Source: Candidatus Nitrosymbiomonas proteolyticus (GTDB lineage: Bacteria; Armatimonadota; Fimbriimonadia; Fimbriimonadales; Fimbriimonadaceae). From it: 64,000 nucleotides of DNA. Of the stretch, positions 7,840 to 63,830 are shown one piece after another (position 1 is the first letter of the stretch; each line of letters starts with the position of its first letter). Under the pieces are notes generated by a model. That model worked only from the letters and a program-made list of their open reading frames with translations. It did not search any database and was not told where the DNA came from. The DNA is taken from NCBI GenBank assembly GCA_017347465.1, contig AP021858.1, positions 806,001 to 870,000 on the forward strand, in the 5' to 3' direction. The position numbers were made by a program, and so were the translations under genes.

Positions 7840-7871
7840 CATCCCTCAGCCCTCGCAGGGTTGAGGGTCTC
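7840..7871 (+). repeat. REP-like palindrome, left copy
   Basis: A 32-base sequence beginning CATCCCTCAGCCCTC and ending GGTTGAGGGTCTC. It is itself palindromic (CCCTCA...TGAGGG) and matches the reverse complement of 8098-8129 at about 29-30 of 32 positions. The two copies bracket the transposase remnant. Confidence 0.75.
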
Positions 7872-7874
7872 GTC

Positions 7875-8123
7875 ATTGCGAACTCGGATGATTTCTGGCA
7901 GGAGGTCCGCTATGTGCGCTCGAATCCCGTGCGGGCTGGACTGGCCGACAGAGAGCATGACTACAGGTGGTCGAGCGCCCTGTTTTGGGAAGAGGGCCTT
8001 GGGTCGGACGAACTCGGACGTCGAATCGACGACGCGATGATTGAGCGTTTCGCGCCGCTGGATTCTCTCGTGTTGAGGCAAGGCAAGCGTCCGGGAGGAG
8101 ACCCTCAACCCCGTGAGGGTTGA
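7875..8123 (+). pseudogene. C-terminal remnant of a REP-associated tyrosine transposase (RAYT)
   Basis: This frame has no good start codon but reads FWQEVRYVRSNPVRAGL, then HDYRWSSA, the highly recognisable C-terminal signature of the Y1/TnpA_REP family (typically YIxxNPVRAGLV...YxWSS). The N-terminal two thirds, which hold the HUH metal-binding motif and the catalytic Tyr, are missing, so the fragment cannot be active. The remnant sits exactly between two inverted REP-like palindromes, the arrangement expected for a RAYT and its REP sequences. Confidence 0.75.
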
Positions 8124-8129
8124 GGGATG
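8098..8129 (-). repeat. REP-like palindrome, right inverted copy
   Basis: The inverted partner of 7840-7871, itself palindromic (ACCCTCAACCCC then GGGTTGAGGGAT). Copy one of a larger 136-base repeat begins three bases after it. Confidence 0.75.
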
Positions 8130-8131
8130 TA

Positions 8132-8267
8132 AAAGCAAGTTTGGGGTGGCACCCGGATGGGGTCTCCGGGAGCCCTGCCGAGGGGAGTGCCTGTCCCCTT
8201 CTGCCGCGTCCCTTGAGGTGCTCGTGTTACCCTGCCCGCGAGCCGCGGGCGCTCCCAGAGACGCGGG
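8132..8267 (+). repeat. 136-bp dispersed repeat, copy 1
   Basis: Starts with AAAGCAAGTTTGGGGTGGCA and ends in a GC-rich palindromic block with CCCGCGAGCCGCGGGCGC. It matches 8539-8674 at a constant offset of 407, with perfect identity in the first 34 bases and the last 35 or so and scattered mismatches between. No protein is supported in it, although several frames are open because of the GC content. Confidence 0.85.
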
Positions 8268-8360
8268 CGCTCCCAGAGCCGAGGTCGCTTCCTGCGTTCG
8301 ACCCTCGGATAGCGATCTGCGCACAATATTCAGGAAGCTCCTAGACTTCCTCGTTCTGCT

Positions 8361-8490
8361 CTACGATTCAGACCGGGCCACCAGACCTCAAAGTCCCCGG
8401 TGTCGTCTACGAGTCAGACCGGGCCACCCGGCGCTGAGGGAAGGGCGCTCGTTTCCCCGGTCTGCCCTACGAGTCAGACCGGGCCACCCG
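8361..8490 (+). repeat. Short tandem-like repeat, three copies
   Basis: The core CTACGAGTCAGACCGGGCCA recurs at 8361 (with one T/G change), 8407 and 8467, separated by 46 and 60 bases. Flanks share CCCCGGT and the continuation CCCGG. The spacers are similar to each other rather than unique, so this is not a CRISPR array. Confidence 0.8.
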
Positions 8491-8538
8491 GCCGTCCAAG
8501 ACCGCGGGATCGCGTTAGGGGGCGGTGAGTTGCACCCC

Positions 8539-8674
8539 AAAGCAAGTTTGGGGTGGCACCCGGATGGGGTCTTACAGGGCCCTGCCGGGGAGAGTGCCTG
8601 CCTCCTTCTGGTACTCCTTCCGGGGTGCTCGCGTTACCCTGCCCGCGAGCCGCGGGCGCTCCCAGAGACGCGGG
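8539..8674 (+). repeat. 136-bp dispersed repeat, copy 2
   Basis: Second copy of 8132-8267. The two copies flank the three-unit short repeat. The stretch from here to the tRNA at 8858 shows nothing else recognisable. Confidence 0.85.
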
Positions 8675-8857: not shown

Positions 8858-8951
8858 TGGCGGGAATGTGTAGGAATCGAACCCACCCGTCCCCGTAAGA
8901 GGACACACCGGTTTTGAAGACCGAGGGGCACACCAGCACCCATCCACTCCC
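8858..8951 (-). tRNA. selC: tRNA-Sec (anticodon TCA)
   Basis: 94 bases on the minus strand. Read 5' to 3': acceptor starting GGGAGTGG, six-pair D stem GGGTGC/GTGCCC with the four-base loop TGGT, anticodon loop CTTCAAA (TCA) on a TCGGT/ACCGG stem, long variable arm GTCCTC-TTAC-GGGGAC, T arm GTGGG-TTCGATT-CCTAC, acceptor 3' strand ACATTCCC, discriminator G, encoded CCA. The 8+5 layout, short D loop and long variable arm are diagnostic of bacterial selenocysteine tRNA rather than a stop suppressor. The eighth acceptor pair is a G-A mismatch. A TACGAT box (8964-8959) ends 7 bases before the first base. Confidence 0.93.
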
Positions 8952-9126: not shown

Positions 9127-9651
9127 CTAGGCTTGGCGAGGGGGACGGAGCCCAGCAAGCGACTCCCGAACCAACAAGAGCCCGACGCGAAACGTCTCGA
9201 ACTCGAAGCTCAACTTCCGATACAGCGGGGCTTCGGCGTCGAAAGGCACATAATCGAAGCTGCTCACGATCTCGTAGCTTTCGCTTCCTTGACGAACGGC
9301 GTCTGGGATCGTGGGAGCTCCGGTCGCGTTCGGGAGGTGTTCGGGGAACATGCCCGACCAGAAAAGCAGGTAGTCGCCAATGTGGCGATGCACCTCGCGC
9401 TCGCGCTCGAAGGTCATGGCATTCTGCCGGATATCGCCTTCGGGAAGCATATCGTCGATGCGTTCGAGCCGGTTGCCGTCACAGTCTCGAAGCGCGAAGA
9501 GGCGCTCCCGATGCGCGAACCGCACCAGCATCGCGGCAAGGTACGCTTCGACGTCTTCGTATCCGGGCATCCCCAGCTTATGAGCGAGGGAGCGATGCAC
9601 GGCCTCTTCGAAGAACGCCTGGATCGGATGTTCGGACGGCCTGGGGTTCAT
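9127..9651 (-). CDS. Conserved hypothetical protein
   Basis: 174 residues, predicted cytoplasmic: no signal peptide or membrane segment. It is helical and rich in Arg, Glu, Phe and His, with stretches such as ERLFALRDCDGNRLERIDDM and HIGDYLLFWSGMFPEHL. I do not recognise the family. The ATG at 9651 has AGGAAG about 14 bases upstream, and the AT-rich stretch 9685-9710 between it and the divergent gene at 9788 looks like a shared promoter region. It lies immediately upstream, on the same strand, of the tRNA-Sec gene, but nothing connects it to selenocysteine metabolism. Confidence 0.6.
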   Translation of the reverse strand: MNPRPSEHPIQAFFEEAVHRSLAHKLGMPGYEDVEAYLAAMLVRFAHRERLFALRDCDGNRLERIDDMLPEGDIRQNAMTFEREREVHRHIGDYLLFWSGMFPEHLPNATGAPTIPDAVRQGSESYEIVSSFDYVPFDAEAPLYRKLSFEFETFRVGLLLVRESLAGLRPPRQA

Positions 9652-53788: not shown

Positions 53789-53864
53789 GGGGATGTAGCT
53801 CAGCTGGGAGAGCGCTGCAATCGCACTGCAGAGGTCGTGAGTTCGAATCTCATCATCTCCACCA
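53789..53864 (+). tRNA. tRNA-Ala (anticodon CGC)
   Basis: 76 bases with encoded CCA. Acceptor GGGGATG pairs with CATCTCC with the G3-T70 wobble that identifies alanine tRNAs. D arm GCTC-AGCTGGGA-GAGC, anticodon arm CTGCA-ATCGCAC-TGCAG (anticodon CGC), variable loop AGGTC, T arm GTGAG-TTCGAAT-CTCAT, discriminator A. It is complete and so still functional after integration of the island, whose left repeat begins at position 32 in the anticodon loop. Confidence 0.97.
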
Positions 53865-54532: not shown

Positions 54533-56218
54533 ATGATTCAAACTCTCATCGTCTTCACGGCGATGGCGCTTGGCCAAACTCCGGCACTCAAATGCCCGGT
54601 CATGGGCAGCGCCGTCGCCCCATCGTCGCCGGTCGTGGAATACAACGGCTCGCGATTTCAGTTCTGCTGCGCAGGCTGTGACGCCAACTTCGCCAAGTCT
54701 CCGGAAGCGTTTCTGAAGACTCAGCGATCTGCAAAGAACACGGTTGGAGTCTTTCTGTTCGATCCGGTCAGCCGATTGCGGCTGGATGCGGACAAAGCCA
54801 AGGCAACGGCCGACTTTGATTCGGTCCGCTATCCCTTCCAGTCGGAAGAGAACAAGGCGGCATTCTTGGCAAACCCCAAGAAGTTCGCTGCCGTGCCCGC
54901 GAAGGAGGCTCTCTATTGCCCGGTTGGCAAGGAGGCCGTCCCTTCCTATTCCAAGGCAAGCGACTACGTTGACCACGACGGGGTGCGCTGGTACATGTGT
55001 TGCGCCGGATGCGGCGGGCCCTTCGAGAAGGACCCCAAGAAGTATCTCTTCGCGGGAATCGAGAAGAACATTCAAGTCGCCAAAGCGATCAAGCACGACG
55101 CTTCGCATCACCCTGTGACCTCTGACGTCAAGGTCGTCACCAAGGTGCAGTTCGGCAAATACGAAGCCGTCCTTCGCGTTCCAGAGGAAGGTCTGTACGC
55201 TCAGGAAGAGATCGATGTGGAGTTCCGCGTCGTCGACACGACGGCTAAGGACCCGGTGGAAGACGGCTTCAAGGGGGTGGGGGCAATCGAAGCGACCGCC
55301 GTCATGACGATGCCGAGCATGGCGGGGATGCCCGAAGCCAAGCCCGAAGTGCACCGTGAAGGCGTACCCGGCGACTACGGCGTCGTTCTGTTCTTTCCCC
55401 ACGGCGGAGATTACAAGATTGCCCTGACGCTGAACATTCCGGGCCAAGGCAAACATGACATCGCGTTTCTAGTGGACGTGAAAGACGAGCGCCCAGCCAA
55501 CGTCGCCAAGCCACAGCCCTTTCAACTCAAGGTTGTCGATTGGCCCGTTCATGCAATGGCTGGCCAACCGAGCAACCTGAAGTTGCGAGTCGTCGACACG
55601 AAGACCGGAAAGGTTCAGAGCGCATTCGATGTCGCTCATGAGAAGCAGTTCCATCTCTTGCTTGCCAGCAAGGACCTCAACTGGTTCCTTCACGAACACC
55701 CCGAAATGGCAAGAGATGGCACGTGGTCAATTCCGATCACGTTTCCCGCTGGAGGGGATTACTGGGTGTACGGCGACGTTGCTCCTAGCGGCAAAGGATC
55801 ACGGGTCCTCATCGCGAAGGTCAGCGTCCACGGCGACAAGCCGACGTGGGATACCAAGTTGAATCTCACGACCACTGCAGCCGACGGCGGTCTTAAGGGG
55901 GAGCTTGTGACTCGCGACATCCAGGTCGGTCGAAAGACCACCTTGATGGTCAAGCTCACTGACGAGAAGACCGGCCAGGCTGCTGGGGATACCGTCAAGT
56001 GGCTCGGAGCGGCAGGTCACATGATGATCTTCCACCAAGACGGTCAGACGGTCGTGCACAGCCACCCTGCCGAAGACGAGGAGAGTGAAGCTCAGGTGAA
56101 GCAAGGCATGGTCCACTTCACGGGCCGGTTCCCCAAGCCTGGACTCTACAAAGTTTACGCCCAGTTCGATTGGCGCGGCGCGGTTCGGACGCTCGGCTTC
56201 GCCATCGAGGTGAAGTGA
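54533..56218 (+). CDS. Exported multi-YHS-domain metal-binding protein
   Basis: 561 residues, ATG with AGGAAA upstream. A signal-like N-terminus (IQTLIVFTAMALGQ) is followed by three YHS-type units: LKCPVMGSAV with FCCAGC (1), a degenerate unit without Cys, FDPVSRLRLD then ENKAAFLANPKKFA (2), and LYCPVGKEAV with YMCCAGC (3). YHS domains bind copper in CopA-like partners. The remaining 350 residues are beta-rich FixH/YtkA-like domains (TAVMTMPSMAGMPEA, LLASKDLNWFLHEHPEMA, GAAGHMMIFHQDG) full of His and Met. This suggests periplasmic buffering or delivery of copper. Confidence 0.8.
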   Translation: MIQTLIVFTAMALGQTPALKCPVMGSAVAPSSPVVEYNGSRFQFCCAGCDANFAKSPEAFLKTQRSAKNTVGVFLFDPVSRLRLDADKAKATADFDSVRYPFQSEENKAAFLANPKKFAAVPAKEALYCPVGKEAVPSYSKASDYVDHDGVRWYMCCAGCGGPFEKDPKKYLFAGIEKNIQVAKAIKHDASHHPVTSDVKVVTKVQFGKYEAVLRVPEEGLYAQEEIDVEFRVVDTTAKDPVEDGFKGVGAIEATAVMTMPSMAGMPEAKPEVHREGVPGDYGVVLFFPHGGDYKIALTLNIPGQGKHDIAFLVDVKDERPANVAKPQPFQLKVVDWPVHAMAGQPSNLKLRVVDTKTGKVQSAFDVAHEKQFHLLLASKDLNWFLHEHPEMARDGTWSIPITFPAGGDYWVYGDVAPSGKGSRVLIAKVSVHGDKPTWDTKLNLTTTAADGGLKGELVTRDIQVGRKTTLMVKLTDEKTGQAAGDTVKWLGAAGHMMIFHQDGQTVVHSHPAEDEESEAQVKQGMVHFTGRFPKPGLYKVYAQFDWRGAVRTLGFAIEVK

Positions 56219-56370
56219 TGCAGACCCTAGGATCAAACGCACTCATCACGGCCGGCGTCGGCGTTTACGCCTGGTTGGTTCTTCGCCGCCTAGGCGTAGG
56301 CCATCCGGACAGCAAGCCAGACTGTGGTTGCGGCTCCGGGAAAGCTTGCAAAGGCAAGGTGCAATCATGA
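56218..56370 (+). CDS. Small single-pass membrane protein with Cys tail
   Basis: 50 residues; its ATG overlaps the upstream TGA. One membrane helix (NALITAGVGVYAWLVLRRL) precedes a short tail with Cys-x-Cys and one more Cys (PDCGCGSGKACKGK). The layout matches FeoB-associated Cys-rich membrane peptides, but no feoB is present; here it probably binds metal at the membrane for the cupredoxin or copper proteins around it. The next gene overlaps its stop (ATGA). Confidence 0.7.
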   Translation: MQTLGSNALITAGVGVYAWLVLRRLGVGHPDSKPDCGCGSGKACKGKVQS

Positions 56371-56726
56371 GAGCCCCTCAAGCCTTTCTGCTTGCAGCCT
56401 TCGCCACCGCTGTCGCGGCCGGTTGCAAGTCCGAACCAGTTGCGGCATCAACAACCGAAGGCGTCCAACGCGCAACCATCACGATCGATGGAGGCAAGTA
56501 CACACCGAACCTCATCACGGTCCAGCGTGGCAAGCCCGTGGCACTGACATTCAAGGGCGGCCAAGAGCTTGGCTGCGGAGGCACGGTTGTCTTCAAATCC
56601 CTCAACCAATCGAAGGAGGTCGAATCCGGCAAGTCCGTGACTTTCACCTTTACGCCCGACAAGGCCGGTGAGATCCCGTTCACCTGCGGCATGGACATGT
56701 ACGACGGCAAGGTCGTCGTCAAGTGA
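56367..56726 (+). CDS. Cupredoxin-domain lipoprotein
   Basis: 119 residues, ATGA overlap with the upstream gene. The lipobox VAAGCKSE suggests a lipoprotein. The cupredoxin fold of the EfeO/CopA-associated type is clear: RATITIDGGKYTPNLITVQR, QELGCGGTVVF and GEIPFTCGMDMYDGKVVV, where C-x-x-x-V-V-F and C-G-M-D-M are the probable copper ligands of this family. It likely carries copper in the periplasm between the YHS protein and the outer membrane. Confidence 0.85.
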   Translation: MRAPQAFLLAAFATAVAAGCKSEPVAASTTEGVQRATITIDGGKYTPNLITVQRGKPVALTFKGGQELGCGGTVVFKSLNQSKEVESGKSVTFTFTPDKAGEIPFTCGMDMYDGKVVVK

Positions 56727-56746
56727 ATCCTCAAGGAAACAGAACT

Positions 56747-57232
56747 ATGAACATCATCAACACAATCTCGAAGTCCCTCGCCCTGTTCGCCGTCATCGGC
56801 ACACTCGGCCTCGCTCCGATCGCTTCGGCGCACGAAGGCGACTGCCCTTACTGCAAGATGAAGCTGGTCCAAAACACCAAAGAACAGGACAACGAAGTCG
56901 TTCTGAAAACGGGCAACAAGCGCATCGAGTATCGGTGCATGTACTGCGTCATCAAGGACCAGGGCCGATACAAGGGCGATCTCGTCGTTTACGCTCCGAG
57001 CGAGAAGGTAGGCGAGCCGGTCGTCCTCAAGCGCACGGGCGGCAAGTGGGCCGCTCCCGAAGGCGCGGTCTTCCTCAACACCTTCAAGAAGCACGCCGAT
57101 TGCGCCGCGTTGTCCCGAGCGTTTTCGAGCAAGGCCGCCTTTGATGCCTATGTTGCGAAGCATAAAGTCGAAGGCGCAAAGGCGCTTACGTTTGCCGAGT
57201 TCGCAGAAGCGGTAACCAAGCCAGCCAAGTGA
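56747..57232 (+). CDS. Periplasmic CxxC/RCxxC module protein (NosL-like)
   Basis: 161 residues, ATG 56747 with AAGGAAAC upstream; a GTG at 56723 is an alternative. A signal peptide (SLALFAVIGTLGLAPIASA) is followed by Cys33 and Cys36 in DCPYCKM, Cys64 and Cys67 in YRCMYCVI, and Cys119 before ALSRAF. The same pattern, with the same spacing style, makes up the C-terminal domain of the next protein. The first cysteine pair with Met recalls the NosL copper-site style, but the whole module is not one I can name. It overlaps the next gene by 4 bases. Confidence 0.7.
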   Translation: MNIINTISKSLALFAVIGTLGLAPIASAHEGDCPYCKMKLVQNTKEQDNEVVLKTGNKRIEYRCMYCVIKDQGRYKGDLVVYAPSEKVGEPVVLKRTGGKWAAPEGAVFLNTFKKHADCAALSRAFSSKAAFDAYVAKHKVEGAKALTFAEFAEAVTKPAK

Positions 57233-58794
57233 AAACTATGAAAGCCATCACCCTACTTGGCATCACAGCCATAGCCTCGCTCGGCTTGGCGCAAGATCAT
57301 TCCGGTCATCAAATGGCCGGAATGAAAAAGCAGACTGAGCTTCCAGCCATGCCGAGAGACATGCCCGCATGGCTTGCTGCACCCGGCGCAGACCACCTCT
57401 TCTACAAAGCAGCGCCCTACAACTGGGCGATCAATCGAATTCCCAAGTTCGCGAAGGACATGTACGCAACAGGAGTTGGTCACGCCATGGCCTATGAGGC
57501 TCTCGTGCGAGGTGAGGCTTCTACGCTCGAAACGAAGACCTTCGACACGATCAACTGGGTACTGAAGAACCAGCCAGCTATGCCGGTGGACGAAGGCGCG
57601 ATCTCGCCAACTTTCCTGCGCAAGTACGGCTATCTGGAGAAGGTTTTCGACTGGGCGCATACGCTCCACTTCCAAACGATCGACGTTTTCGCCCATCCAG
57701 GGTGGACCGACGAGCAGAAGGAGAAGGAGATCGAGCGGCTCTGGGCGTTCTACGAAGCTCAGCCGTACGCGATCACGGGGTTGCCCATGAACATGGATTA
57801 CCTCGACAGCTTTTCGTATTCGATGAAGTTCCGCACCGACTACCCAAAGGTGAACGGCCTCTTCTGGGGCTATCACTGGTTGCAGACCGTGAACTACGAC
57901 ATGCTCTACCGCGTTCCGGTCAAGGATCAGGCTCCTCAATACGAAGTGCTTGGCGCGAGATATCACGAGACTGAACTGTACAAGACGGACCGCGATTTCA
58001 TGCCGATGACGGCCGAAATGAGCCCTCGATTCGCAAAGCGATTTCCCCAGATCGCGAACGCTTTCGATAACCTCCACATGCTTCACGACAACGTGAACGA
58101 TATCCTTGCCCAGCCGCAACTCACCGAAGCTCAGAAGCAGGAGCAGGTAAAGATCGCGATCTACCGCGTCCTCGCCACCACTCATATCAGCGAAACGCCG
58201 GGTGAAAGCGAAGGCAAAGAGAACTCACTCCACGACCATCGCCACCCGCCGAGCATGCCAGGAATGGGCTGGATGAAGGGCAGCGAGGACGACATCATGT
58301 GGATGTCGGGAATGGGCTGGATGGACATGAGCGCATGTTCCCACTGCTCGATTCCGATGCCCGAAGGCAACCCTTGGGGCGCGACCGTTTCCGCCGAAGG
58401 ATGGACGATGATGGTGCGATGCCTCATGTGCGCCCGAGACATGGCGGGGGAGACGCCGGGCCGCGCCATCATTCGAGCCGCAACCAACGACCCGAACCGT
58501 TTGCTCGTGCTCATCTCCGATGAAGAGGGCAATTGGACCTCGAACATCGACGGCATCGTGTTCTTGGAGAAGTACGGCGAGCATCCCGAATGCTCTGGCT
58601 GGTCTCGCGCGTTCACTACGCTTGCCGCGCTTGAGAAGTATGTTTCGGAAAACCCGGAGTACAAGGATACGAAACCGCTGAACCTCGCGGAATGGGCTGC
58701 ACTCAATCACGGCACCCCCGATACATATCGCAAGATCGACAAGCCCAACCCTTACAAGCCCGGACCTCCGCCCGCGAAAGGAGGAGGTCGATGA
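57229..58794 (+). CDS. Exported protein with His/Met-rich linker and C-terminal CxxC/RCxxC module
   Basis: 521 residues, ATG 57229 within a 4-base overlap. After a signal peptide (ITLLGITAIASLGLAQ) comes a His/Met-rich strip (HSGHQMAGMKK). The helical body (about 30-320) has many Trp and Tyr residues (YGYLEKVFDWAHTLHFQTID) and no recognised family. A Met/His/Gly-rich hinge (HDHRHPPSMPGMGWMKG, then MWMSGMGWMDMSA) leads to the C-terminal module with Cys370/373, Cys398/401 and Cys455 before GWSRAF, paralogous to the protein just upstream. The metal-ligand-rich hinge supports a copper role. Confidence 0.75.
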   Translation: MKTMKAITLLGITAIASLGLAQDHSGHQMAGMKKQTELPAMPRDMPAWLAAPGADHLFYKAAPYNWAINRIPKFAKDMYATGVGHAMAYEALVRGEASTLETKTFDTINWVLKNQPAMPVDEGAISPTFLRKYGYLEKVFDWAHTLHFQTIDVFAHPGWTDEQKEKEIERLWAFYEAQPYAITGLPMNMDYLDSFSYSMKFRTDYPKVNGLFWGYHWLQTVNYDMLYRVPVKDQAPQYEVLGARYHETELYKTDRDFMPMTAEMSPRFAKRFPQIANAFDNLHMLHDNVNDILAQPQLTEAQKQEQVKIAIYRVLATTHISETPGESEGKENSLHDHRHPPSMPGMGWMKGSEDDIMWMSGMGWMDMSACSHCSIPMPEGNPWGATVSAEGWTMMVRCLMCARDMAGETPGRAIIRAATNDPNRLLVLISDEEGNWTSNIDGIVFLEKYGEHPECSGWSRAFTTLAALEKYVSENPEYKDTKPLNLAEWAALNHGTPDTYRKIDKPNPYKPGPPPAKGGGR

Positions 58795-59555
58795 GACGAC
58801 TTCTGCTCATCTCAGGGCTCCTTCTCAGTTCGCTCGCGTTCGCCAGCGACCACAACAACATTGAAGCAGGACGCCCGCTCCGCTTCGACGACGCTTACTC
58901 CATCGCCTTTCGCGAGCGCGCATTCGAGTTTGGCTTGTCGCTGGATACGTTTCGGCGGCGCGGACCCACCTACGGAAACAAGACCGAGTTCAAATACGGC
59001 TTGGCCAAGAACCAAGACATTTCCGTCGCATTCGAGCCCACGTATTCAAGCTCTGAGCGAAGGGGCGATATCGGAAACGTCGAAATCGGCTACTTCAACG
59101 GACTTCGCCGCGAGATCGACAACTCGCCCGCACTTGCTTACCGAGTGGACGTCGGCCTTCCGACCGGGCGCGGCGCGAAGGGGCTCGATCTTCGGTTCCG
59201 TGGAATCGCGACGAAAGCGCTGGGTCAGTACGACAAGGTTCACCTCAATCTCGATCTGAACATGAACACCAACCCGGGCCCGGGCGAGCGTCGTCACACC
59301 GTAGGCGCAGTTCTGGGCTATTCCAAGCCATTGGGCTACCCGCGCCGTTTCGATCAGACCCTGGTAGCCGATTTCGCCATCCAGCAAAGCAAGAATGAAG
59401 GTGATGGCTTCGTAGGGTCGGTCGGCCTCGGATTGCGTCGTCAAGTTAGTCCCCGAGCCGTGTTCGACATCGGGATTACCTCCGACATCTTCTCGACGAA
59501 GGGGGCAGAGCGAAGCCCAGTCCGCTTTGCCATCGGCTACTCGGTTAGTTTTTAG
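58791..59555 (+). CDS. Outer-membrane beta-barrel protein, transporter-like
   Basis: 254 residues, ATG 58791 overlapping the upstream stop, with GGAGGAGG just before. A signal peptide (LLLISGLLLSSLAFAS) is followed by about ten amphipathic strands (FEFGLSLDTFRRRGPTYGNK, FKYGLAKNQDISVAFEPTY, FVGSVGLGLRRQVS) and a C-terminal aromatic residue (GYSVSF), typical of Omp85-assembled barrels. It resembles the metal- or phenol-related outer-membrane 'transporter' family; the substrate is unknown. Last gene of the rightward operon. Confidence 0.75.
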   Translation: MRRLLLISGLLLSSLAFASDHNNIEAGRPLRFDDAYSIAFRERAFEFGLSLDTFRRRGPTYGNKTEFKYGLAKNQDISVAFEPTYSSSERRGDIGNVEIGYFNGLRREIDNSPALAYRVDVGLPTGRGAKGLDLRFRGIATKALGQYDKVHLNLDLNMNTNPGPGERRHTVGAVLGYSKPLGYPRRFDQTLVADFAIQQSKNEGDGFVGSVGLGLRRQVSPRAVFDIGITSDIFSTKGAERSPVRFAIGYSVSF

Positions 59556-59564
59556 TCAACGGGG

Positions 59565-59583
59565 TGGGCACTTTTTGTGCCCA
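59565..59583 (+). terminator. Hairpin between convergent operons
   Basis: TGGGCAC and GTGCCCA form a perfect seven-pair stem with a TTTTT loop. There is no T-run after it, so it is probably a weak or bidirectional terminator between the barrel gene and the TlpA gene. Confidence 0.5.
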
Positions 59584-59650
59584 TCTCCATCTTAGATTCG
59601 AGGGAAGTCGTCTTTCGCATCCGCGCTATTCGTACCAAGCAGTTAGGAAG

Positions 59651-60301
59651 CTACTTGGGCAAGTTGGCAGAGATGCCAGCTTCGAGGGTCTTTTCAGTCT
59701 GCTTTCCCGTCCATTGCGCGATGATCTGGCCGTCCCTTACTAAGAACATGGCGGGAATGTTCTTGACGCCCCATTTCTGCCAGGTTCTCTGATCGTCGTG
59801 GAGGACGGGGTTGGGGAACTTGTGGCCTTTGAGGAACTTGTCAAGGTTGGGCTGCTTTTCGTCGATGCTGACGCTGAGAATCTCGAAACCCTTCTCCTTG
59901 TAGCGGGCGTGGAGCTTGTCCAGCATGGGCATCATGGCTTTGCAGGGGGCGCACCAGGTGGCCCAGAAATCCACGAGCACGAGCTTGCCTTTCATCGATT
60001 CGGCATCCCAGGTCTTGCCTGTGGTGTCGACTAGAGCGAATTCAGGCACGGGCCGGGGCAATACAGGCGGTACGTATGCATCCGGGTCCTTCTTGAACGC
60101 GGCGATTTCCTTCGTGTTGCAGAAGTAGTACGCGTTGCCTTTGTACATCAGACCCCCGGCTGGTTTTTCGGGGCCATCGTTGGGGCAGAGGAGGCACTTG
60201 GCCTCTTTGGGAAGGTCTTTCTTGGCGATGTCGGTCGGCGTGTCTTGGCCCATCGAGACAAGCGATGCAAAGGCCAGGAGTAGAGTAGCGATTGTTTTCA
60301 C
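59651..60301 (-). CDS. Fusion of YHS-like domain and TlpA/ResA thioredoxin
   Basis: 216 residues, GTG 60301, four bases after the upstream stop. A signal peptide (TIATLLLAFASLVSMGQ) is followed by a short YHS-like unit with Cys36, Cys39 and Cys61 (EAKCLLCPNDG, MYKGNAYYFC, FKKDPDAYVP), then a TlpA-type thioredoxin (about 85-216) with the active-site WCAPC at residues 116-120 and cis-Pro in KNIPAMFLV. It probably reduces or rebuilds disulfides in the Cys-rich periplasmic copper proteins, or delivers copper. Last gene of the leftward operon. Confidence 0.85.
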   Translation of the reverse strand: MKTIATLLLAFASLVSMGQDTPTDIAKKDLPKEAKCLLCPNDGPEKPAGGLMYKGNAYYFCNTKEIAAFKKDPDAYVPPVLPRPVPEFALVDTTGKTWDAESMKGKLVLVDFWATWCAPCKAMMPMLDKLHARYKEKGFEILSVSIDEKQPNLDKFLKGHKFPNPVLHDDQRTWQKWGVKNIPAMFLVRDGQIIAQWTGKQTEKTLEAGISANLPK

Positions 60302-60305
60302 GTGA

Positions 60306-60920
60306 TTAGAATCCCCAGCCGATGGTGATCGCTGGATGCTTGAACCAGATCCACCCGGCTTGAATGAAATAGTTGGATTGCGAATAGGTGACGAGCAGGT
60401 GCGATTTCCTGCCGTCGTTCATGGCGATGGCAGTCCACTCGGGTGAGAAACGGTAACTCGCGCCGAACGGATAGACGAGCTTTTTCTCGAAGCCCGAGTA
60501 GGTGATCGAGAGATATGGCGATAGCTGGGTACCGGGAATCGTCTTGCCGAAGTTGGCGCTGGCGAGTTGATAGCCCTCGGGCGTCCCGATGCGGTCCGAA
60601 CTTGTGTTGAAGAAGATCATCGGTCTCTTCTCGTTCTCGCTCTGAACGACCCACGTCGCCCTCAACCCTAGTTCTTGGACGGCGAAGTTGTACTCCGTTC
60701 CGATCTGGAAGTTGGGCGTAGCGTTGTAGTCGATCGTCAATCGGTGCCGTGGTCGCAGTTGAGGCGTGTCGGCGAATCGATAGGCGATTACCCATCTCTT
60801 GTTGAGGCTTCCCGAACCGAGAAGCTGGCCTTCGCCGGGTCACCCAGTTCACGTTGGGACGCTCGTCTGACAATATGCCAGGACGGGCAGAGCGGCGAAC
60901 AGAACAGCTATTTTCCGCAT
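60306..60920 (-). CDS. Outer-membrane protein with two in-frame TGA codons; candidate selenoprotein
   Basis: A 204-codon frame from ATG 60920 to the TAA at 60308-60306. The start lies in the last 13 bases of the Cys-rich peptide gene, and the N-terminus is a typical signal peptide (MRK then IAVLFAALPVLAYC). Codons 24 (60851-60849) and 27 (60842-60840) are TGA, in the order V-P-T-TGA-T-G-TGA-P-G-E-G, the spacing of CxxC. After them 177 codons stay open: a barrel-like protein (LTIDYNATPNFQIGTEYNF, YLSITYSGF, end ITIGWGF). Because tRNA-Sec is present and a SECIS-like hairpin follows, selenocysteine is possible. Two nonsense mutations in a dying gene, or initiation at TTG 60740, remain possible. 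Confidence 0.6.
60805..60831 (-). promoter_or_regulatory. SECIS-like hairpin after the TGA codons
   Basis: On the minus strand CTTCTC (60824-60819) pairs with GGGAAG (60813-60808) around the loop GGTTC, extended by AGG/CCT. The loop begins 21 bases after the second TGA and 30 after the first, inside the 16-37 window described for bacterial SECIS elements, and it contains the required G and U. A short GC-rich hairpin can occur by chance here. Confidence 0.4.
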
Positions 60921-60994
60921 GGACATCCACAGGTGCAGGTCGAGCCGGGGCATTGCCCAGAGGCGCAGCAGTCGCAATTACAGTTACAGTTCAT
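60908..60994 (-). CDS. 28-residue Cys-rich metallothionein-like peptide
   Basis: Runs from ATG 60994 to TAG 60908 and has 10 cysteines in 28 residues, at positions 3, 5, 7, 9, 10, 15, 20, 22, 24 and 26 (start MNCNCNCDCC, end CTCGCPCGK), mostly C-x-C spacing. AAGGAGA lies about 6 bases before the ATG. It overlaps the arsR stop by 11 bases and the next gene's ATG by 13, so translation is coupled on both sides. This fits a cytoplasmic thiolate cluster peptide that buffers Cu(I) or similar ions. It matches no metallothionein family I can name. Confidence 0.75.
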   Translation of the reverse strand: MNCNCNCDCCASGQCPGSTCTCGCPCGK

Positions 60995-61373
60995 GTTTTT
61001 CTCCTTGATCGAGTTGGTTTGGGCCGAGAACGCAATAGCCGTCTACTCTGATGGCGAGCCTCCTTCTGATCCTTTCCGCGTCGCGCTGGCCGCGTTGGTC
61101 CGCTTTGAGCGCTGCCGCGTAGTGGTTCAAAACGGCTTCAAGTGCGGGCTTTGCGCTCGGCTCGATGCTGTAGTTGATCCACTTGTGCCTCTGTGTGGTG
61201 GAGAGGACTCCCGCCTGACGGAGGGTTTGCAAATGGTTGGAGAGCGTTGATTGACTCATCTCCAGGGCATCGGCAAGCTCACAGACGCAAAGCCCGTTCT
61301 TGAGCAGTGCCGCAAGGATTCGCACACGAGTGGGATCGGCGAGAGCTTTGCCAAACAGGACGACATCGTTCAT
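60984..61373 (-). CDS. ArsR/SmtB-family metal-sensing repressor
   Basis: 129 residues from ATG 61373. A winged helix follows the ArsR pattern: KALADPTRVRILAALLKNG, then the metal-sensing alpha-3 sequence LCVCELADAL (CxC as in ArsR/CadC sensors), then the recognition helix SQSTLSNHLQTLRQAGVL and wing RHKWINYSIE. An extra Cys (GYCVLG) near the C-terminus may complete the metal site. Such proteins release DNA on binding As(III), Cd(II), Cu(I) or similar. It is divergent from copA across a 60-base intergenic region and heads the arsR-peptide-barrel-TlpA transcript. Confidence 0.9.
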   Translation of the reverse strand: MNDVVLFGKALADPTRVRILAALLKNGLCVCELADALEMSQSTLSNHLQTLRQAGVLSTTQRHKWINYSIEPSAKPALEAVLNHYAAALKADQRGQRDAERIRRRLAIRVDGYCVLGPNQLDQGEKHEL

Positions 61374-61433
61374 GGCTTCATACCAGGATACGAGGATATG
61401 ATAGCACAAGTTCCTGCCAGCGTAGAATAGAGC
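61374..61433. promoter_or_regulatory. Divergent arsR/copA promoter and operator region
   Basis: Sixty bases. For copA, TAGAAT (61423-61428) stands 5 bases before the ATG, giving a probably leaderless mRNA. GGATACGA then GGATATGA (about 61386-61401) form an eight-base near-direct repeat with an AT-rich neighbour, a plausible ArsR operator covering both promoters. Confidence 0.5.
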
Positions 61434-63830
61434 ATGGCACTTGACCCCGTTTGCGGGATGATGGTTGACCCCGCCGATGCGGCGGGGTCGTTTGAACACG
61501 CGGGCACAACTTACTATTTCTGCGGCAAGAGTTGTCTGGAGCGATTCAAGTCGAACCCCGAGAAACATCTGGCCCCTGAGCCAATCGAGGCAGCAGAGCC
61601 TCAAGATGTGCGGCTTGAGTACACCTGCCCCATGCATCCCGAGATCGTGCAGAAGGGTCCGGGCAGTTGCCCGAAGTGCGGCATGGCGTTGGAGCCGCTC
61701 CATCCGGCCGCGACGGTCAAGAAGACGCAATGGACTTGTCCGATGCATCCGCAGATCGTGCAGGACAAACCGGGCAGTTGCCCCATCTGCGGGATGGCGC
61801 TTGAACCGATGGAGGTGAGCCCCGACGACGAGAATCCCGAGCTTGTGGACATGACCCGCCGGTTCTGGGTTTCGACCGTCCTCTCGATACCGCTTCTATT
61901 GGCAGTGATGCCCCATCTGTTCGGATTCGACATCGCGAACTGGATACCGCATGGAGTTCTGGGCTGGGCACAGTTTGCGCTCGCTACGCCGGTGGTGCTT
62001 TGGGGAGGGTGGCCATTCTTCCAGCGCGGTTGGGCTTCGGTTGTCCATCGCAGCCCCAACATGTTCACGTTGATCGCGCTGGGGACCGGAGTGGCTTGGC
62101 TGTACAGCGTGGTCGGCGTCATCGCCCCCCACGTGTTTCCGCCTTCGTTCCGCAACAAGATGGGTGGTGTGGACCTGTATTTCGAGGCAGCAGCCGTTAT
62201 CACGACGCTCGTCTTGCTGGGTCAGGTCCTAGAACTTCGAGCACGGAGCGCGACGAGCAGCGCCATTCGGGCTCTACTCGACCTTTCACCCAAGCAGGCT
62301 CGGCTGGTTCGAGACGGAAAGGAAGAGGACATCCCGCTGGAACATGTCCATATGGGTGATTCGTTACGTGTGCGCCCTGGGGAGAAGATTCCTGTGGATG
62401 GCATCGTGATCGACGGCCGAAGCTCGGTAAATGAGTCCATGATCACCGGCGAGCCTATGCCCGTTCAGAAGGCCGAAGGCGACAGAGTGACGGGGGCGAC
62501 GGTTAACGGAACGGGGAGCTTCCTAATGCGGGCTGAGCGCGTGGGAAGTGAAACCCTGCTTGCCCAGATCGTGAAAATGGTGAGCGAGGCACAGCGCTCG
62601 CGGGCTCCCATTCAAAAGTTGGCCGACACGGTTTCTGGCATATTCGTGCCGATTGTGGTGTTGGTCGCGATCATTTCCTTTGTCGTTTGGGCCATGTTCG
62701 GGCCAGCGCCTGCAATGGCGTATGCGGTCATCAATGCGGTCGCGGTGTTGATCATCGCCTGCCCTTGCGCACTGGGTTTAGCGACTCCGATGTCGATCAT
62801 GGTCGGAACCGGGCGCGGTGCACAGGCCGGTGTTCTCATCAAGAGTGCGGAGGCGTTGGAGGCGTTCGAGAAAGTTGACACTCTGGTGGTTGACAAGACG
62901 GGCACGCTCACCGAGGGCAAGCCACGGGTGGTTGCCGTCGTTCCTCTGGCAGAACTCTCGGATACCGAGGTTCTTGAGGTGGCGGGAGGGATCGAGCAAG
63001 GCAGCGAACATCCCCTGGCGGCGGCGATTCTCGCTGGCCTCAAGGAACGTAGCATCGAGCCGAGCAAGGTGCAGGATTTTGAGTCGGTCACCGGCAAAGG
63101 CGTGCGTGGCAAGATCGGCAACGACGACGTTGCGCTCGGAAACTTCGCCTTGATGGAGTCTGTTGGCGTGACCCCGGGGGACGCCGCGACGAAAGCAGAG
63201 GCGATGCGAGCCGAAGGCCAGACCGTCATGTTCGTCGCTAAGGGGACAAAGGTTGTGGGTCTGATCGGCGTTGCGGACCCGATCAAGACAACAGCATCTG
63301 AAGCATTGGTCGCTTTGCACGAAGAGAAGATTCGCGTCGTCATGGTCACGGGCGACAGCAAGACCACGGCGCAGGCGGTTGCCACAGGACTCGGCATTGA
63401 CGAAGTCCATGCCGACGTTTTGCCCGAAGGCAAGATTGAGATCATCAAGCGACTCCAATCGGAGGGGCGGTTCGTTGCGATGGCCGGTGACGGGATCAAC
63501 GACGCCCCTGCTCTTGCTCAAGCTCAGGTTGGAATCGCGATGGGAACTGGCACCGACGTGGCAATGGAAAGCGCTGGCATCACCCTCCTCAAAGGCGATC
63601 TAACGGGACTGGTTCGGGCGAGAAGACTCAGCCGTGCGACAATGAGCAACATCCGCCAGAACCTCTTTTTCGCTTTCGTCTACAACGTCGCGGGAGTTCC
63701 AATTGCTGCGGGCGCTCTTTATCCGTTCACTGGTCTTCTACTGGGTCCGGTGATCGCGGCATTGGCAATGAGCTTAAGTTCTGTGTCCGTGATTGGCAAT
63801 GCGCTGAGGCTACGGAGCACAAAACTGTAG
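61434..63830 (+). CDS. copA: Copper-exporting P1B-type ATPase with YHS and heavy-metal-binding domains
   Basis: 798 residues. Order: YHS domain (Cys7, Cys30, Cys34), two copies of the short heavy-metal-binding domain ([38 protein letters not shown]), then the P-type ATPase core. Cu+ ligands: CPC at 443-445, YN in TM7 ([11 protein letters not shown]) and MxxSS in TM8 ([11 protein letters not shown]), the P1B-1 signature. Phosphorylated Asp487 is in [13 protein letters not shown] reads TGEP; hinge motif [10 protein letters not shown] is intact. It exports Cu(I), possibly Ag(I), from cytoplasm to periplasm. Its promoter is shared with arsR. Confidence 0.96.

Follow-up and report, generated by a model that had tools for sequence, protein, structure and literature searches.

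A selenocysteine tRNA gene with a conserved acceptor mismatch and a predicted Sec pathway in a bacterium of the Armatimonadota

Introduction

The stretch of DNA analysed here (the window) comprises 64,000 nucleotides, positions 806001-870000 of the genome of Candidatus Nitrosymbiomonas proteolyticus, a single contig of 2,809,316 bases that is 99% complete. A preliminary description of the window pointed to a well-formed gene for selenocysteine tRNA (tRNA-Sec), located far from any gene of the selenocysteine (Sec) machinery, next to repeats. The locus raises the question of whether such a gene is functional, which partners in the genome it could work with, and which genes would make use of it.

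Results

The tRNA gene

ARAGORN, applied to the window, calls a tRNA-SeC with anticodon TCA on the minus strand at 8858-8951, with the following elements.

8858..8951, minus strand: tRNA-Sec gene (selC) with encoded CCA (ARAGORN; Rfam RF01852, 74.4 bits; ViennaRNA fold)
8915..8917, minus strand: anticodon UCA, which reads UGA (ARAGORN position 35 and the sequence)
8858..8861, minus strand: discriminator G followed by the encoded CCA (from the sequence; GCCA is also found in the tabulated relatives)

The covariance-model scan that had been suggested as a check was run with Infernal. The Rfam model RF01852 matches 8862-8951 at an E-value of 2.1e-13 over the entire window and with 74.4 bits, which passes the gathering score of 47, and the model is covered end to end (1-91 of 91). 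The ViennaRNA prediction is a cloverleaf with an acceptor stem of 7 bp, a D stem of 6 bp, an anticodon stem of 5 bp, a variable arm of 7 bp and a T stem of 5 bp. The features that mark a tRNA as tRNA-Sec, namely the UCA anticodon, the 6-bp D stem, the long variable arm and discriminator G73, are all present. ARAGORN, RF01852 and the predicted fold thus agree with the earlier statement that D stem, variable arm and anticodon are intact. The folding energy calculated with ViennaRNA is unexceptional (z -1.68, with 15 of 200 shuffles equally good); free-energy z-scores are weak proof of structure and carry no weight in the assignment.

The gene shares with selC of E. coli the UCA anticodon, the 6-bp D stem, the long variable arm, the discriminator G and the encoded CCA, as well as the length of the acceptor and T arm, which is 13 nucleotides in both. 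The E. coli gene fits RF01852 better (83.8 bits, compared to 74.4). It is concluded from the sequence that the tRNA-Sec gene is genuine and very probably functional. The only other tRNA gene in the window is a tRNA-Ala with anticodon CGC at 53789-53864 (64.6 bits).

Sec machinery in the genome

The preliminary description was right that the window contains no selA, selB or selD. All three are located elsewhere in the genome, and each scores above its curated cut-off.

749280-750185 of the genome: SelD (350.3 bits)
779085-780914 of the genome: SelB (354.1 bits)
2365264-2366562 of the genome: SelA (445.6 bits)

The proteins are full length and show no damage apart from a UGA in SelD. The genome therefore has selA, selB, selD and selC together, which is the gene set of the bacterial Sec-decoding trait. 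It also has candidate selenoproteins, in that an in-frame UGA and a SECIS-like hairpin occur both in SelD and in a deiodinase-like gene, described below. The finding that had been proposed as counting against Sec decoding, a genome without SelB and SelD, was looked for, and both are present. The suggestion that this genome decodes UGA as selenocysteine is consequently well founded, with SelA, SelB and SelD above cut-off and two UGA-containing redox genes carrying SECIS-like hairpins. Formate dehydrogenase had been named as a possible selenoprotein, and the genome encodes four proteins with molybdopterin domains, none of which has an internal stop.

Co-occurrence among relatives

The distribution of the trait was examined in 41 genomes, consisting of this one and 40 relatives. 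Strong tRNA-Sec matches (at least 66 bits) are found in 27 of them, and ARAGORN calls a tRNA-SeC in every one of these 27. In the remaining 14 genomes the best match reaches at most 50.1 bits, and the three such matches that were checked are ordinary tRNA-Ser or tRNA-Arg. SelA and SelD are each above cut-off in 27 of the 41, and these are the same 27 genomes that have tRNA-Sec; the three components are jointly absent from the other 14, with no intermediates. The only genome in the set from the same genus (G001) has neither tRNA-Sec nor SelA nor SelD, which suggests that the whole Sec trait was lost recently.

A wider sample of the phylum gave SelD above cut-off in 130 of 237 Armatimonadota genomes. 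With a limit of E 1e-30, 132 of the 237 have a SelD match, and a TGA lies inside the matched stretch in 108 of these 132, the position of the TGA having been checked in 24 genomes of the set of 41.

The eighth acceptor position

Bacterial tRNA-Sec normally has eight acceptor pairs and five T-stem pairs, according to the accessible text of PMC5330540, which also describes exceptions to this 8+5 rule. Because exceptions have been published, a departure from the rule was not taken as excluding tRNA-Sec. The gene in the window does depart from it, having seven standard acceptor pairs and a G-A mismatch, then five T-stem pairs.

8944, minus strand: eighth acceptor nucleotide, G, opposite the A at 8869 and forming no standard pair (RF01852 alignment, fold and relatives)
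8869, minus strand: A directly 3' of the T stem, the unpaired partner of 8944 (A in 25 of 27 tRNAs)

The E. coli gene has C-G in place of this mismatch. In the order to which the bacterium belongs, 26 of 27 tRNA-Sec genes lack a standard pair at the eighth acceptor position, the exception being a G-C in G010, and the two 3' bases that are not A are a G and a C, in a tally that pools two alignments, with the values for L035 and L039 coming from the earlier one.

The closest parallel considered is provided by the 12-bp (7+5) tRNA-Sec variants of Secmarker, in the accessible text of PMC5330540, which are likewise one standard pair below 8+5. As described there, they have seven residues between the T stem and the discriminator, often with a bulge or a shortened linker, whereas the tRNA-Sec in the window keeps eight residues, with a 1x1 mismatch and zero nucleotides lost, as does the group of tRNAs that share the mismatch. 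The chances appear about even that the tRNA-Sec of the order is a stable structural variant whose eighth acceptor pair has given way to a conserved mismatch with A, and which keeps the length of 13 layers without 13 standard pairs. If this is true, SelA and SelB of the lineage would need to recognize length, and not full pairing. The conserved mismatch is in any case a mild oddity in an otherwise ordinary tRNA-Sec.

SelD and its hairpin

SelD has one in-frame TGA, within the motif CAG-U-AAK, and we take this UGA to be at the catalytic position of the family. The closest named SelD, which is 97% identical, is labelled 'Chthonomonadaceae bacterium isolate H1_ARM1', and the next closest are mostly labelled Fimbriimonadaceae, Chthonomonas or Armatimonadetes. 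The mRNA would form a hairpin with a 6-bp stem and a loop CGUGC that begins 32 nt past the UGA. The arrangement is that of known Sec-containing SelD (TIGR00476), which likewise has a catalytic-site UGA and, behind it, a hairpin that falls within the range of bacterial SECIS elements; nothing notable differs. The bacterial SECIS model set out in the accessible text of PMC13188914 has an upper stem of 4-16 bp and an apical loop of 3-9 nt, is located 16-37 nt after the UGA, and carries a G within the first two positions of the loop. The SelD gene of this genome fits this model, as do all eight of the deiodinase-like genes discussed below.

Among the 27 Sec-positive genomes, the codon at this site of SelD is TGA in 24 and Cys in three. 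In the 24 Sec-type genes standard pairs make up 85.4% of the hairpin cells, two-sided changes number 18, and the covariation score is 0.341, compared to a mean of 0.100 for shuffled alignments, with none of 500 shuffles as high. Kinship alone can lift related sequences above such shuffles, but controls in which the partner was slid by 1 to 3 columns gave only 0.037-0.082, far below the score of the hairpin, and argue against this. In the three Cys-SelDs (G002, G006 and G028, at loci L169, L176 and L153 respectively), which retain SelA and tRNA-Sec, only 44.4% of the hairpin cells pair, which is about the level of shuffling. Because their SelD has Cys and no hairpin, and yet SelA and tRNA-Sec are kept, some other selenoprotein probably uses the Sec system in these three genomes.

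A deiodinase-like gene

The second gene with an in-frame TGA was found outside the window.

977162-977650 of the genome (L241:1402-2013): deiodinase-like gene, in-frame TGA at TUPPFR

Its product matches the Pfam family T4_deiodinase (PF00837) with 97.8 bits against a cut-off of 27, and the TGA falls within the active-site motif TUPPF. The protein also matches the solved structures of type III deiodinase (E 4.9e-20) and type II deiodinase (E 1.2e-15). Genes of this kind are above cut-off in eight of the 41 genomes; all eight have the TGA, and all eight genomes are Sec-positive. Three further matches, weaker at 19.5-21.8 bits, contain no stop.

A hairpin of 5-7 bp with the loop (A)GGU or (A)GGC is present in all eight genes, 16-17 nt past the UGA. 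None of 2000 shuffles reaches as much stem as these hairpins, where the shuffles are of single bases and preserve neither codons nor dinucleotides. From its sequence, the gene at 977162 is assigned as encoding a deiodinase-like selenoprotein with a thioredoxin fold and a TUPPF active site. It resembles the bacterial deiodinase-like selenoproteins presented in the accessible text of PMC1088965 and PMC13188914, in belonging to PF00837, in having Sec in the active site, and in having a bacterial SECIS. It differs from the example listed in the latter text in that the active site is TUPPF, and not a UxxC motif.

Other candidate selenoproteins

All in-frame TGAs in the window were scanned for coding potential on both sides, and no selenoprotein was found. 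Pfam scans of 48 picked window genes or gene pairs gave no domain cut by a TGA. The coding-potential scan is insensitive to Sec near the N-terminus, since in a test the true UGA of SelD was absent from its six best candidates. A selenoprotein with N-terminal Sec could thus have escaped, and the negative result for the window is of moderate strength. The preliminary description had also mentioned a selenoprotein candidate in the window, not named exactly, for which the coding scan and the Pfam searches give no support.

The strongest two-sided candidate, TGA 25966, marks the boundary between two separate genes, one CcmC-like and one for a methyltransferase, no domain spanning it, and TGA 56724 comes after a complete cupredoxin domain and is read as a normal stop. 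A metal-handling cluster is located at 54533-63827 of the window, and consists of a YHS/YtkA protein, a cupredoxin, a thioredoxin-like protein with YHS, an ArsR-type regulator, and a P-type ATPase with heavy-metal-binding and YHS domains.

In the family search, glutathione peroxidase has Cys, and the TGA of thioredoxin is a normal stop. Matches to MsrA, MoeB, GlpC-like and OsmC proteins have no internal stop, and for ArsC and DsbA no separate match was obtained. In an all-against-all BLAST of readthrough frames near the sel genes, matches in antisense frames swamped the output. The number of selenoproteins is at least two, a lower bound to which HesB, AhpD-like, DsbG-like, glutaredoxin, SelW-like and other families may add.

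Genomic neighbourhood

From the tRNA-Sec gene the distance to selB is 34 kb and that to selD 65 kb, and selA is over 1.2 Mb away. Its surroundings were compared with the corresponding stretches from 20 of the 26 Sec-positive relatives. G013 has the gene order of the window: tRNA-Sec, a gene of 174 amino acids, a zinc-ribbon gene, SprT-like, NnrE/D, two FHA genes and a VWA gene. Portions of this neighbourhood are retained in G014, G018 and G009.

9130..9651, minus strand: 174-aa gene with no Pfam match, adjoining tRNA-Sec also in G013, G014 and G018 (conserved synteny)

Linkage to sel genes was seen in G006, where selB is 4 kb from tRNA-Sec, and in G026, where selD adjoins it. In ES-bin-173, selD adjoins relatives of the VWA and FHA genes of the window. 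Because G013, G014, G018 and G009 keep the neighbourhood and only G006 and G026 show linkage, it is concluded that part of the family has inherited the place of tRNA-Sec, and that among the 20 relatives it is unusual for the gene to be linked to sel genes. In E. coli, selC is likewise remote from selA and selB, being 75 kb from selA, and it is far from selD. A selABC operon is common elsewhere (accessible text of PMC5330540 and PMC1794560), and may be the source of the expectation of linkage. The distance from the machinery, which had been presented as notable, is therefore the usual situation, in these relatives and in E. coli.

The repeats reported beside the tRNA gene are real, and occupy 7840-8674 of the window. 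This intergenic stretch has two direct-repeat blocks of 72 and 51 nt with a spacing of 407 bp (88-98% identical), three copies of a 41-nt element, and an inverted repeat of 35 nt whose arms lie near 7840 and 8095.

Discussion

Taken on its sequence, the feature is almost certainly selC, the only Sec tRNA gene of a member of the Armatimonadota that has every component of the bacterial Sec pathway and uses it in at least two genes. Following established biochemistry, SerRS would charge the tRNA with serine, SelA would convert Ser-tRNA to Sec-tRNA with selenophosphate supplied by SelD, and SelB would deliver the Sec-tRNA to those UGA codons that precede a SECIS hairpin. The users of the pathway would be SelD itself and the deiodinase-like thioredoxin-fold protein with the TUPPF site. 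The four sel genes are scattered over the chromosome, with the tRNA in an inherited neighbourhood and not beside its partners.

The same scattering, together with the patchiness of the trait, which is absent from the same-genus G001 and from 13 other relatives, could also be expected if the tRNA were a relic, in a genome where Sec decoding is lost or decaying and both in-frame UGAs, in SelD and in the deiodinase-like gene, are now read as stops. We regard this as very improbable. SelA, SelB and SelD are full length and undamaged save for the UGA of SelD, the genome preserves the SECIS-like hairpins, and in the relatives tRNA, SelA and SelD go together, all three being retained in 27 genomes and all three missing from 14, with nothing in between.

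Less probable still, to the point of being hardly credible, is some other suppressor of UGA, for example a long-arm tRNA with a UCA anticodon that inserts serine or cysteine. The missing eighth acceptor pair does bring the acceptor nearer to the 7-bp elongator type, but the 13-nucleotide length of acceptor and T arm is retained, and the D stem of six bp and the long variable arm do not suit such a tRNA. Neither does the score, which is 74.4 bits compared to at most 53.1 for secondary hits, three of which proved to be ordinary tRNA-Ser or tRNA-Arg, nor the strict co-occurrence with SelA and SelD.

No paper on selenocysteine in Armatimonadota turned up in the library of papers searched, although supplementary tables may list these genomes. 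The term Armatimonad- is absent from the main texts of PMC5330540, PMC5029168, PMC13188914 and PMC4561486, and in the accessible text of PMC4807772 the mentions of Armatimonadetes and of selenocysteine are unrelated. For Fimbriimonas combined with selen-, the titles and the openings of the abstracts concern community or other surveys.

The tRNA-Sec gene is thus a sound annotation, and part of an ordinary, complete and very probably functional Sec system, which is no surprise. What it usefully adds is the extent of Sec in the phylum, a deiodinase-like selenoprotein and an acceptor mismatch that is conserved. The finding places complete selenocysteine decoding in the Armatimonadota, a little-studied phylum. 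In genomes of this kind, automated annotation may truncate SelD and the deiodinase-like gene at the UGA. Because the components are strictly present or absent together in the 41 genomes, including a loss within a genus, the group is a neat natural experiment on trait loss. The deiodinase-like selenoprotein, being significantly similar to animal deiodinases, could provide a handle on what such bacterial proteins reduce.
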